From Sphingomonas sp. (GTDB taxonomy: Bacteria > Pseudomonadota > Alphaproteobacteria > Sphingomonadales > Sphingomonadaceae): a stretch of 32,699 nt of DNA. The stretch spans positions 1 to 32,699 of the forward strand of contig JACDEB010000008.1 of NCBI GenBank assembly GCA_013816595.1. Reading direction: 5' to 3'. Shown piece after piece: positions 1 through 28,479 of the stretch. Position 1 is the first letter of the stretch, and every line of letters starts with the position of its first letter. The notes beneath the pieces are model-generated. The model had not been told where the DNA came from, made no database searches, and worked only from the letters and a program-made list of their open reading frames with translations. The position numbers and the translations under genes are program-made.

Positions 1-34
1 CGCCAAGGTCGGAAAGGCTCTTCTTGTCGGCCAT
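1..34 (-). CDS. rpsI: 30S ribosomal protein S9, N-terminal start only (partial)
   Basis: Only the first eleven codons lie in the window, reading MADKKSLSDLG from an ATG at 34 on the minus strand. The 'SLSDLG' N-terminus fits the extended S9 proteins of sphingomonads. The gene sits one base after the rplM stop codon, and rplM-rpsI is a near-universal bacterial operon. The assignment therefore rests on the short N-terminus plus context. S9 is a small-subunit protein whose C-terminal tail reaches the P-site tRNA; that part is outside the window. Confidence 0.8.
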   Translation of the reverse strand, partial: MADKKSLSDLG

Positions 35-35
35 G

Positions 36-515
36 TTATGCACCCACCTTGTTCTTGCGGCTCATGCCGGCGACATCGAGATTTTGCGGATTTTGGCCAC
101 CGTGCGGGTGGTCGGTGCCATTGTAGAGGTGAAGCGCGCGCATCTGATCACGGCCAAGCGGGCCGCGTGGAATCATGCGTTCGATCGCTTTTTCAAGCAC
201 GCGCTCGGGAAAGCGGCCTTCGAGCACCTTGCCCGCGGTCGTTTCCTTGAGCCCGCCGGGAAAACCGGTGTGTTTGTAATAGATCTTGTTCTTGAGCTTG
301 TTGCCGGTGAAGCGGACCTTGTCGGCGTTGACGATTACGACATGATCGCCGCAGTCGACGTGCGGGGTATAGCTCGGCTTGTGCTTGCCGCGCAGGATGT
401 TGGCGACGATCGTTGCCAGGCGGCCGACGATGAGCCCGTCGGCATCGACCAGATGCCAGTTCTTTTCGACGTCCTGCGGCCGGATCGACTTGGTCGTCTT
501 CATCAGCGCCTTCAT
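36..515 (-). CDS. rplM: 50S ribosomal protein L13
   Basis: A 159-residue protein, the usual L13 length, if it starts at the ATG at 515 (MKALMKTT...). An in-frame ATG at 533 would add six residues, but AAGAGG lies about nine bases upstream of the 515 codon and no comparable Shine-Dalgarno precedes 533, so 515 is preferred. The sequence shows family features: WHLVDADG near the N-terminus, [18 protein letters not shown] in the centre, and the [12 protein letters not shown] stretch near the C-terminus. L13 is an early-assembling large-subunit protein. It is followed one base later by rpsI, so the two are certainly co-transcribed. Confidence 0.97.
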
Positions 516-25107: not shown

Positions 25108-26340
25108 ATGCACATGGAGAATTTCGCCCCCCAGGGCCGGTCGAAGGCGGGTCAGGTGACGCCGACGGCTCGGATCCTGATTATCGCCGGCTCCGACAGC
25201 GGGGGCGGCGCGGGCGTGCAGGCGGACATTAAGACCATCACCATGCTTGGCGGCCATGCCATGACAGCGGTTACCGCGATCACTGCGCAGAACACGCTTG
25301 GAGTTACCGCGGTCCACCCGGTGCCGGCTGAAATCATCCTCGCCCAGATCGACGCGGTGGTCGCGGATATTGGAGTCGACGCGGTCAAGATCGGGATGAT
25401 CGGAAGCGCCTTTGCCGCCGAGCAAGTCGCGGCCCGGCTCGAGCAGTTGCGCGCCGAGCAGCCGGGTTTGCCGATCGTGTTCGATCCCGTGATGGTCGCG
25501 ACCAGTGGTGCCTCGCTCGCCGACGACGCGACCGTCGCCGCCTTCGGCCGGCTGATGAGCGTCGCAACCATCGCAACGCCCAATCTGCCCGAACTCCAGC
25601 GCCTGACCTCGGAGGAAGATCCGGTGTCCGCGGCGCTTCATCTGGTTGGGCAATATGGTTGCGCGGTGTTGATCAAGGGTGGGCATGACGAGGGCGACGC
25701 GCTCGCCGACGCGCTCATCGAAACCGACAATATGACCAGTTGGCAGGGGCAGCGCATCGTCACCGACGATACCCATGGCACCGGCTGTACATTGGCCAGC
25801 GCGATCGCCTTGTTTCTCGCCCAGGGCAATGGCCCGGCGCAGGCCGTCGCCCGGGCCCGCGAATTCGTCCGCATCGCGCTCCACGACCGGCCCGGTCTGG
25901 GGCAGGGGGCGGGGCCGATCGGCCAGGCCAACGTCCGGCTCGACGTCGGCGCCGGCCCGCGCCTCAATCAGGTCACCATCACCGGCAGCGATTATGCCCG
26001 CTCGGTCGATTTTTACCGCCGGCTTGGCCTCAAGCAGATCGTCGACAGCCCCGACAATGGCTATGCCCGGTTCGAATCCGCTGGCGGAGCGACGTTCTCC
26101 GTCCAGATCGATCCCGAGGAGAAAATCCAGGCGACGACCGCGATCTATTTCGAATGCGACGACCTCGACGAGCGGGTGGAGCGGCTGGCGCGGAGCGGAA
26201 TCGCGTTCGAACATGGACCGCGCAACCAGCCGTGGATGTGGTGCGAGGCGCGCCTTCGCGACCCCGATGGCAATATCATTTTCTTCTACCACGCCGGCGA
26301 AGCGCGCCGCTTCCCCCCGTGGCGAGTGGAAAAAAACTAA
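25108..26340 (+). CDS. thiD: ThiD (HMP/HMP-P kinase) fused to a VOC-fold domain
   Basis: A 410-residue two-domain protein. Residues about 20-275 form a complete ThiD ribokinase-fold kinase, which phosphorylates hydroxymethylpyrimidine (phosphate) for thiamine synthesis: GSDSGGGAGVQADIKT (28-43), VFDPVMVATSG, IKGGHDEGD, and the anion hole DDTHGTGCT (220-228). After a short linker, about 286-405 is a VOC (glyoxalase/bleomycin-resistance superfamily) domain with the paired ARSVDFYRRLGL and DPDGNIIFFYH motifs. The usual first metal histidine is Gln (LNQVTI) and the usual Glu after DPDGN is Phe, so a metal site seems incomplete. GTG 25156 is an alternative start closer to the domain. Confidence 0.9.
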   Translation: MHMENFAPQGRSKAGQVTPTARILIIAGSDSGGGAGVQADIKTITMLGGHAMTAVTAITAQNTLGVTAVHPVPAEIILAQIDAVVADIGVDAVKIGMIGSAFAAEQVAARLEQLRAEQPGLPIVFDPVMVATSGASLADDATVAAFGRLMSVATIATPNLPELQRLTSEEDPVSAALHLVGQYGCAVLIKGGHDEGDALADALIETDNMTSWQGQRIVTDDTHGTGCTLASAIALFLAQGNGPAQAVARAREFVRIALHDRPGLGQGAGPIGQANVRLDVGAGPRLNQVTITGSDYARSVDFYRRLGLKQIVDSPDNGYARFESAGGATFSVQIDPEEKIQATTAIYFECDDLDERVERLARSGIAFEHGPRNQPWMWCEARLRDPDGNIIFFYHAGEARRFPPWRVEKN

Positions 26341-26342
26341 GC

Positions 26343-26415
26343 TCGTCATTGCGAGGCTCCGAAGGAGCCGTGGCAATCCAGTGACTTGACTGCCGCGCTG
26401 CGCTCGCAATGACGA
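26343..26415. repeat. Palindromic repeat, TCGTCATTGCGAG type
   Basis: Terminal inverted repeats TCGTCATTGCGAG (26343-26355) and CTCGCAATGACGA (26403-26415) flank a core with GGCTCC-GAA-GGAGCC. This repeat type is dispersed in many alphaproteobacterial genomes. It starts just after the thiD-VOC stop codon and could act as a bidirectional transcript-stabilising hairpin. Confidence 0.85.
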
Positions 26416-26460
26416 ATTTGTGGATAAGCAGGCGCGCACCCACTCAGGCATTAGAATCTG

Positions 26461-26486
26461 GGTTCCCGCTTGCGCGGGAATGACGA
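26461..26486. repeat. Hairpin repeat, TTCCCGC-TTGC-GCGGGAA type
   Basis: A 7-bp stem (26463-26469 with 26474-26480) and a 4-base loop are followed by TGACGA. This resembles one half of a known sphingomonad dispersed repeat. It sits 11 bases before the rnhB start and may influence its translation or act as a weak terminator. Confidence 0.7.
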
Positions 26487-26496
26487 ATAAGGGGGC

Positions 26497-27189
26497 ATGC
26501 CACGGCACTGCTCCTTCAAGCTCGAGATCGGCTTTCCCGAGCCCTTGGCCGGGGTCGACGAAGCGGGTTGCGCACCGCTTGCCGGGCCGGTCGTCGCGGC
26601 GGCGGTGATCCTCAACCGCTCGAGCTTTCCGCGCGGTATCGACGACAGCAAGACCCTGCCGCTGGCCAAGCGCGAGGCACTTTACGGCCGGATCGTGCAA
26701 TGCGCCGCCTGGGGCGTCGGCTCGGCTAGCGTCGAGGAAATCGACACCATCAACATTTATTGGGCGCGGATGCTGGCGATGAGCCGGGCGGTCGAGGCGC
26801 TTGGGCTCGAACCCGCCTGGGTGCTGGTCGATGGCAATGCCTGTCCGCGCTGGCAGCGGCCGTCGAAGGCGATCGTCGGCGGCGATTCCAAATGCCGCTC
26901 GATCGCCGCGGCCTCGATCGTCGCCAAGGTTACCCGCGACCGGCTGATGGCCGATCTGGCGGGCGAATTCCCAGGCTATGGCTGGGAGACCAACCGCGGC
27001 TATCCGACCGCTCATCATCGCCGCGCTTTGGGCGAGCTCGGGCTCACCCCGCACCATCGCCGGAGCTTCGGGCCGGTGCGCGCGATCGTCGTGCGATTGG
27101 CCCAAAGCGAACTCGCTTTGAGCGAAAATGAGCGAGGCGAGTCCTCGGCGCCACACCACCACGGATTGAGTCCGCTCACCGCGATCTGA
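26497..27189 (+). CDS. rnhB: Ribonuclease HII
   Basis: A 230-residue enzyme that nicks RNA-DNA hybrids at embedded ribonucleotides. The catalytic acids are visible in GVDEAGCAPLAGPV (DEAG near residues 21-24), VDGN (about 111-114) and the conserved D in KVTRDRLM. GGDSKCRSIAAASIVAKV and the GYGWETNRGYPT loop complete the family pattern. The last ~30 residues (after VRAIVVRLAQ) look non-conserved and are encoded in the GANTC-rich sequence that leads to ccrM. rnhB next to ccrM is a conserved alphaproteobacterial arrangement. Confidence 0.95.
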   Translation: MPRHCSFKLEIGFPEPLAGVDEAGCAPLAGPVVAAAVILNRSSFPRGIDDSKTLPLAKREALYGRIVQCAAWGVGSASVEEIDTINIYWARMLAMSRAVEALGLEPAWVLVDGNACPRWQRPSKAIVGGDSKCRSIAAASIVAKVTRDRLMADLAGEFPGYGWETNRGYPTAHHRRALGELGLTPHHRRSFGPVRAIVVRLAQSELALSENERGESSAPHHHGLSPLTAI

Positions 27190-27290
27190 CTCAACATCTT
27201 GTGGTTGGGCCGATTCGGACTCCTATTGTTCCGAGCGCTTCGAAAGCGCCGTTAACCCTTTGAATGTTGACCGCGAGTCCGCACTGACTC
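27139..27290 (+). promoter_or_regulatory. ccrM control region with seven GANTC sites
   Basis: GANTC occurs at 27139-27143, 27168-27172, 27188-27192, 27212-27216, 27218-27222, 27275-27279 and 27286-27290. TTGTGG (27199-27204) and CTATTG (27223-27228), 18 bases apart, form a possible promoter with two GANTC sites in its spacer. TTAACC (27252-27257) is a CtrA-like half-site. Methylation-sensitive autoregulation, as known for Caulobacter ccrM and GcrA promoters, is the natural reading. Confidence 0.65.
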
Positions 27291-27336
27291 ACCCTCTCGT
27301 GCCCGGTTCAACGGGGCCAAGTTCAGGGGGGGCTGA

Positions 27337-28479
<1,143 letters not shown>

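Follow-up and report, generated by a model that had tools for sequence, protein, structure and literature searches.

The timing of ccrM expression is known mostly from Caulobacter, where CtrA drives the gene and where the GANTC sites of the ccrM promoter lie in the transcribed leader, and the locus considered here raises the question of what might time it where a full CtrA site is lacking. The window, which is the entire stretch of 32,699 nucleotides analysed (Sphingomonas sp., assembly GCA_013816595.1, contig JACDEB010000008.1), carries downstream of rnhB a gene whose product is, by profile and by PDB match, CcrM: its score against the curated NF050803 profile (NCBIfam) is below the cut-off of 830 bits, and the E value against the CcrM of PDB entry 6pbd is 5e-157. 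As the earlier note had read from the letters, seven GANTC sites are crowded into the end of rnhB and the gap up to ccrM (Table 1), two of them inside rnhB and a third at its end.

Table 1. Coordinates of the features in and around the GANTC cluster upstream of ccrM.
Feature	Positions	Strand	Remarks
rnhB (RNase HII)	26497-27189	+	C-terminal tail runs into the array; Pfam domain ends at residue 192 of 230
GANTC 1 (GAGTCC), outer left, inside rnhB	27139-27143		aligned in 59/59 genus loci; GAGTC 59/59
NrdR-like box 1, CCACCACGGATTGAGT	27156-27171		score 12.1 with the nrdA-promoter matrix
GANTC 2, inner edge of box 1	27168-27172		begins on conserved G13; 54/59 genus loci; GAGTC 54/54
GANTC 3, inner edge of box 2	27188-27192		ends on conserved C4; overlaps the rnhB stop codon; 53/59 genus loci; GACTC 53/53
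NrdR-like box 2, ACTCAACATCTTGTGG	27189-27204		17 bp after box 1; score 18.3; only exact copy in the assembly
GANTC 4	27212-27216		rare in the genus: aligned column in fewer than 4 of 59 loci
GANTC 5 (GGACTC), outer right	27218-27222		mirror of GANTC 1; 33/59 genus loci; middle base variable
CtrA-like half site TTAACC	27252-27257	+	15 bp before the -35
Inferred -35 hexamer TTGACC	27267-27272	+	sequence reading; TTGA[C/A] plus two GANTC in 55/59 genus loci
GANTC 6, promoter spacer	27275-27279		54/59 genus loci; all four middle bases found
GANTC 7, ends on the first base of the -10	27286-27290		59/59 genus loci; offset 19 in 55/55 genus loci with the two-site layout
Inferred -10 hexamer CACCCT (weak)	27290-27295	+	17 bp after the -35; sequence reading, not mapped
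ccrM, GANTC adenine methyltransferase	27343-28479	+	NF050803 E 9e-188, 623 bits; Pfam N6_N4_Mtase and RAMA

The background against which this cluster stands is even thinner than the one site per 300 bp assumed in the earlier note. We have counted 671 GANTC in 307,111 bases, or one per 458 bp (20 contig stretches of the same genome plus the window, about 16% of an assembly of 1.9 Mb that is 83% complete), and the suspicion that the cluster is unusually dense is borne out: it is the only 152-bp stretch with seven sites in these 307 kb, the runners-up having four. Chance, or the general enrichment of GANTC between genes, which averages more than 1.5-fold in Alphaproteobacteria with CcrM according to a passage of PMC3973325, could in principle produce such crowding. 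The Poisson expectation of a seven-site cluster in 1.9 Mb is only about 0.005, and the roughly 6- to 20-fold enrichment upstream of ccrM described below, together with two sites held at conserved places in 59/59 genus loci, leaves this explanation a practically negligible probability; as the source of the cluster it is refuted by the background counts and the conservation. In the window as a whole (1-32699) there are 86 GANTC against 173 expected from shuffles, indicating that the word is generally under-represented.

The number of GANTC sites upstream of ccrM is conserved as well. In sets of loci that lean toward those most similar to the window, and whose kinship means that the counts cannot be treated as independent, the 300 bp in front of the conserved ccrM core (Leu27) hold on average 7.05 sites in the genus (59 loci; at least four sites in 58/59), 5.90 in the rest of the family (80 loci; at least four in 72/80), 5.86 in the other families of the order (28 loci; at least four in 28/28) and 3.56 in the rest of the class (48 loci; at least three in 35, at least four in 21, none in 4). 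Elsewhere in the same loci the local background is 0.29-0.61 GANTC per 300 bp, hence the enrichment by group given above. The 79 named loci (Caulobacterales, Rhodobacterales and others) average 2.72 sites versus 0.48 in the background, 41 of them having at least three and several none. The genus set comprises 61 genomes minus one with no full ccrM match (G016) and one at a contig edge (G005), a second partial ccrM match in G027 not being counted; the family set is 80 of the 126 same-family genomes outside the genus, the 46 excluded including the least similar; the order set is 28 of 57 other-family genomes; the class set is 48 of 94 genomes, with 45 in the single-box and 28 in the pair test presented below; and 79/80 named loci were used, the remaining one (L358) starting inside the gene. 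The site count in relatives had been set beforehand as a test that could refute the importance of the cluster, and in every group it proved to be far above background.

Such numbers are what would be expected of a pure methylation-state sensor, in which all of the GANTC sites count methylation and ccrM is switched off once they are fully methylated, NrdR having no part in it. The spacing of the sites near multiples of ten bp (best period in the genus 9.75 bp, power 3.8 versus a null mean of 1.27) favors this as well, as does the statement, in a passage of PMC2217572, that Caulobacter ccrM is transcribed only from hemimethylated DNA. An exact 10.5-bp phasing is not supported: genus and family share a best period of 9.75 bp, the rest of the order has one of 14 bp, and the class shows no periodicity power above the largest null value. 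The identity of the individual sites weighs on the other side, and it is best considered beginning with the promoter.

The two sites nearest to ccrM start at offsets 8 and 19 from the inferred -35 in the arrangement TTGACC-N17-CACCCT. The earlier description of two sites within the spacer of a plausible promoter is right in outline, but the second site spans the last four spacer bases and extends onto the -10, which is itself poor; a consensus sigma-70 scan found no promoter here. Defined as TTGA[C/A] followed by one GANTC at 6-10 and one at 15-21, the same two-site layout is found in 49/80 family, 21/28 order and 22/48 class loci in addition to the genus loci of Table 1, and the offset of the second site is 19 in 140/147 of all the loci with the layout and 20 in the other 7. 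It occurs in 0/210 control stretches 1-1.3 kb upstream, those stretches being poor in GANTC. Between the inferred -10 and ccrM the window has no GANTC, the transcription start itself being unmapped. With the Caulobacter ccrM promoter it shares the presence of GANTC before ccrM, the proposal of a self-methylation feedback and, at most in part, CtrA. The part in question is the half site TTAACC: TTAAC[CT] is present at -15 in 30/59 genus loci and anywhere in 80 bp in 31/59, compared with 0/57 controls. The full CtrA site TTAA-N7-TTAA is absent from the promoter of the window, where TTAACCCTTTGAATG at 27252 fits in its first half only. By eye, the order loci L083-L090 and L159-L178, from other families, often have GATTC, an A-rich stretch and sometimes GAATC right before the -35, an upstream layout different from that of the window's family.

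GcrA contacts sigma-70, and this genome encodes a gcrA homologue (PF07750, two stretches over the cut-off; in 14 control genomes the same search also matches one archaeon, beside Caulobacter). The binding of GcrA depends on GANTC methylation, as the title of PMC3667746 has it, and Caulobacter start sites with a GANTC between -10 and -35 form a timing class of their own (passage in PMC4287350). With spacer GANTC at fixed places, a weak -10 and gcrA in the genome, the ccrM promoter resembles the GcrA/CcrM-type promoters, differing from them in its pair of sites, of which the second borders on the -10, and in that the role of GcrA is predicted. We infer that GcrA acts at this promoter. Control by DnaA was considered and set aside: a DnaA-like box is found within 200 bp in 26/80 family loci, but in only 1/59 genus loci, and none was read in the window, for which reason we do not regard it as part of the feature. 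In several family loci, for example L064, L076, L181 and L182, such a box (TGTGGATAA) lies close behind the ccrM -10.

Two kinds of GANTC can be distinguished by the behavior of their middle base. In the genus the first promoter site is GAGTC in 34 loci, GACTC in 15, GAATC in 5 and GATTC in 1, and the second is GACTC in 46, GATTC in 6 and GAATC in 3, whereas three of the upstream sites have a single fixed middle base (Table 1). Conservation thus concerns mainly the GANTC pattern at the promoter pair, and the exact word at the three upstream sites. At the promoter, where position is fixed and the middle base varies, the picture agrees with selection for a GANTC that can be methylated, of the kind seen in GcrA/CcrM promoters, and the supposition that these two sites act like methylation sites has gained by it. 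A simple split into two kinds is weakened by two observations. GAGTC, common at the first promoter site, is absent from the second in all 147 loci scored across the groups, so the middle base there is not wholly free. Moreover, the outer right site of the upstream group varies in the genus (offsets 62-63: GACTC 23, GATTC 10, GAGTC 3), which is a point in favor of the pure sensor, and its nearest counterpart in the family (offsets 50-51) is GACTC in 40/40. Nevertheless, a mere methylation target has no need of a fixed middle base such as the other three upstream sites possess, and the stretches flanking these three are conserved too; a pure sensor therefore appears quite improbable. In 28/59 genus loci there is an additional GANTC 9 bp after the first site that the window lacks, and in many of the relatives shown the outer right site is followed by a word close to CTTTCGTTCTC (27223-27232 of the window).

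What the fixed upstream sites adjoin is an inverted repeat, visible in the genus alignment as ACCAC..TTGAGTC / GACTCAACATCTTGTGGT, that has the form of a pair of NrdR boxes. Similar words stand as paired boxes before the ribonucleotide reductase genes of this genome and of its relatives, the second box reading ACTCAACAACTAGTGT in the genome's own nrdA promoter where ccrM has ACTCAACATCTTGTGG. We have employed a matrix of 22 boxes from 11 nrdA promoters, all of the genus and chosen with the guidance of the NrdR consensus, to score pairs 31-33 bp apart. The ccrM pair (27156-27204) scores 30.3, the training promoters themselves score 24.6-32.3, and among 2013 overlapping background windows the 99.9th percentile is 14.7 and the maximum 14.9. 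The 99.9th percentile is exceeded in 59/59 genus and 68/80 family loci and in none of the controls taken from the same loci at -1300..-1000 (0/137) and -900..-600 (0/137), of which 2/137 and 9/137, respectively, exceed the 99th. A third and unclean control, the ccrM coding stretch at +30..330, has 35/131 loci above the 99th percentile and 0 above the 99.9th, these loci being related copies of one sequence. Measured from start to start, the spacing that scores best is 33 bp in 111/139 loci, and the controls show no such preference. A mismatch search of the whole assembly placed the nrdA box among eleven 3-mismatch places, compared with 5 hits for a reversed control pattern; a single box is thus not specific on its own, and the pair is.

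The genome also encodes the corresponding protein (TIGR00244, E 2e-49, above the cut-off), as do 87/96 genomes sampled over the class; before nrdR itself, no box pair above background was found in 12 genus loci. A passage of PMC9110341 locates the specificity pairs of the NrdR-DNA structure at positions 9, 18, 40 and 49 of its 57-bp fragment, which has 5-bp flanks, and we have taken these to be positions 4 and 13 of each 16-bp box. Both boxes retain the corresponding C4 and G13 in 59/59 genus pairs and in 67/69 family pairs, the number of family pairs here being 69 (rather than 68) from a slightly longer search stretch. The ccrM pair is thus like those of the ribonucleotide reductase promoters in having two 16-bp boxes with the contact pairs kept, about three helix turns apart. 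It is unlike them in preceding a methyltransferase gene, in its GANTC inner edges, in its spacer of 17 bp as opposed to 15-16 bp at the nrdA promoters here, and in its position. With regard to the spacer, 15-17 bp permits NrdR repression in vivo according to a passage of PMC12051234, so that the 17 bp found here lie at the limit of what works. With regard to position, NrdR boxes often overlap the promoter (passages in PMC12176259 and PMC9110341), whereas at ccrM they end 62 bp upstream of the inferred -35 and, by eye, no convincing promoter overlaps them.

The boxes and the GANTC sites are interlocked. The sites at 27139, 27168, 27188 and 27218 make up a mirror-symmetric 29-20-30 bp array around the inverted repeat, the outer two being mirrored about nearly the same centre as the box pair; the inner two occupy mirror places on the boxes, and both are present in 50/59 genus loci. 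In the 11 nrdA promoters no GANTC overlaps a box (0/11). Given that the inner sites start or end on G13 and C4, CcrM would methylate adenines just beside the base pairs that NrdR is expected to read. It could be objected that some other dyad-binding protein reads GAGTCC at the inverted repeat and that the likeness to NrdR boxes is a coincidence of motif shape, since the outer sites and the 29-20-30 bp symmetry reach past the boxes and the boxes stand 33 bp apart, 1-2 bp more than at nrdA. This seems unlikely to us in view of scores equal to those of the nrdA boxes, of four NrdR contact pairs kept in every genus locus, and of canonical single boxes (such as ACACAATATCTTGTGT) before ccrM in some loci of other orders. 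The middle base fixed at three of the four array sites and the placement of the inner GANTC on NrdR-read bases are better explained by a protein-binding word than by methylation alone. The proposal that the whole cluster is a methylation-state sensor controlling its own methyltransferase consequently stands in part: the cluster is real and conserved, and its promoter pair is methylation-like, but the upstream sites are not simply extra sensors, with the middle base fixed at three of four and with two of them edging an NrdR-like inverted repeat.

Part of this array lies within a gene. Box 1 starts inside rnhB in 36/58 genus loci and past its stop in 22/58, and where it is wholly inside rnhB it is found in two frames (14 and 12 genus loci). 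A pair that lies in rnhB or past its stop, and in more than one frame, suggests that it is the DNA rather than the protein that is conserved, and the earlier idea of an RnhB tail retained for its regulatory DNA thus finds support. In loci taken as Rhodobacterales (L333-L367) the rnhB frame is readable in 15/22, and all 15, which are related to each other, have one NrdR-like box in the last codons; the leucine codon is TTG in the box in 15/15, and the adjacent residues differ between some of the loci.

Outside the Sphingomonadaceae the evidence for a box pair is weaker. At the level of the order, matching words such as GCACTAAAGCTTGTGG fall in conserved rnhB codons, and for this reason the pair matches there (23/28 above the 99th percentile) have been discounted. 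The pair test in the class places 15/28 loci above the 99th percentile and 10/28 above the 99.9th, and some of these pairs lie within rnhB codons. Single boxes reach a score of 13 in 8/45 class loci versus 2/90 controls (Mann-Whitney p 1e-7 over all scores) and, counted only from the rnhB stop (minus 20 bp) onward, a score of 15 in 3/34; canonical ones such as ACACAATATCTTGTGT recur before ccrM in some other-order loci. Parvibaculum sedimenti (L329), by its name a member of another order, has a pair with a score of 24.7 and a 31-bp spacing; a GANTC lies on each inner edge, that of box 1 placed as in the window and that of box 2 shifted by 2 bp. Caulobacter vibrioides has no comparable pair (best scores 9.7 in L289 and 3.8 in L290; L289 carries 4 GANTC within 300 bp upstream of the match). 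The ccrM promoter of the window therefore differs from that of Caulobacter not only in the GANTC between its -35 and -10 and in its lack of a full CtrA site, but also in the GANTC within an NrdR-like pair.

Considered together, these features make it fairly likely that the ~150 bp form a compact ccrM control region of two parts, a GANTC-spacer promoter and, upstream of it, a candidate NrdR box pair. The first would be a sigma-70 promoter with a good -35, a weak -10 and a 17-bp spacer holding two GANTC, so that transcription may respond to the methylation of these two, with GcrA as the most likely mediator. The second, about 60 bp upstream, would be the box pair with its GANTC inner edges and two symmetric flanking GANTC. 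Judged from the sequence, ccrM probably belongs to the NrdR regulon, and CcrM would methylate the candidate boxes at their edges. NrdR with dATP and ATP binds DNA, as when DNA synthesis falls, and represses (passage in PMC9110341). At ccrM the dATP/ATP form, prevailing when there is little DNA synthesis, would bind and keep expression low; in S phase, with dATP consumed, NrdR would leave and CcrM would be made along with ribonucleotide reductase. The promoter GANTC pair would add a dependence on methylation state. Considering the distance between the boxes and the -35, NrdR could repress only by looping or spreading, or if an unmapped promoter lay close to the boxes, and it might perhaps activate instead of repressing. 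Because the methylated adenines would adjoin the base pairs read by NrdR, a link between the two signals could arise either from hemimethylation after passage of the fork or from occlusion of the sites by NrdR. For MucR and CtrA, a passage of PMC5172544 reports that a protein can keep CcrM away from GANTC sites, and NrdR might do so here; the likeness is that the site of a DNA-binding protein overlaps GANTC, and the difference that here the protein would be a putative NrdR, that the promoter is that of ccrM itself and that the occlusion is proposed by analogy. More speculatively, and with doubt prevailing, ccrM could be an ancestral member of the NrdR regulon in the Alphaproteobacteria, part of a feedback loop linking nucleotide supply, replication and methylation, whose place in Caulobacter has since been taken by CtrA.

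Control of ccrM by methylation has been stated before for Caulobacter (passages of PMC2217572 and, as "most probably", of PMC3973325). In passages of PMC2877005, some Alphaproteobacteria are described as having no CtrA sites before ccrM, and Brilli et al. (2010) count GANTC upstream of cell-cycle genes, those passages drawing no conclusion on control. With respect to NrdR, we found no paper placing ccrM under its control in the open-access literature, with subscription papers, supplements and regulon databases outside the search. PMC10483419 mentions NrdR, CcrM and GANTC, and passages of it draw no link between NrdR and CcrM; the word "methyltransferase" is absent from the main text of Leyn et al. 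(2016) on NrdR regulons; and a passage of PMC12176259 cites work in Acinetobacter according to which NrdR may interact with a DNA adenine methyltransferase other than CcrM. The novelty of NrdR control of ccrM is accordingly provisional. An NrdR-like pair that is conserved and interwoven with methylation sites, together with a GANTC-spacer promoter, the latter recurring through the class, would be a testable answer to the question of how CcrM is timed without CtrA sites: CcrM would be made when dNTPs are consumed and its promoter is newly hemimethylated, the marking of DNA would be tied to its synthesis through the sensing of DNA building blocks by NrdR, and the reach of NrdR would extend beyond the ribonucleotide reductase genes.

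Finally, the region before rnhB contains dispersed repeats (26344-26425 and 26464-26485 of the window), of which CGTCATTGCGAG is present in 9 copies, on both strands, and TCCCGCTTGCGCGGGAATGACG in 2 copies in the 307 kb sampled. They follow an ORF of 410 amino acids (25108-26340) that combines a phosphomethylpyrimidine kinase domain (residues 30-271) with a glyoxalase-type domain (residues 285-391).
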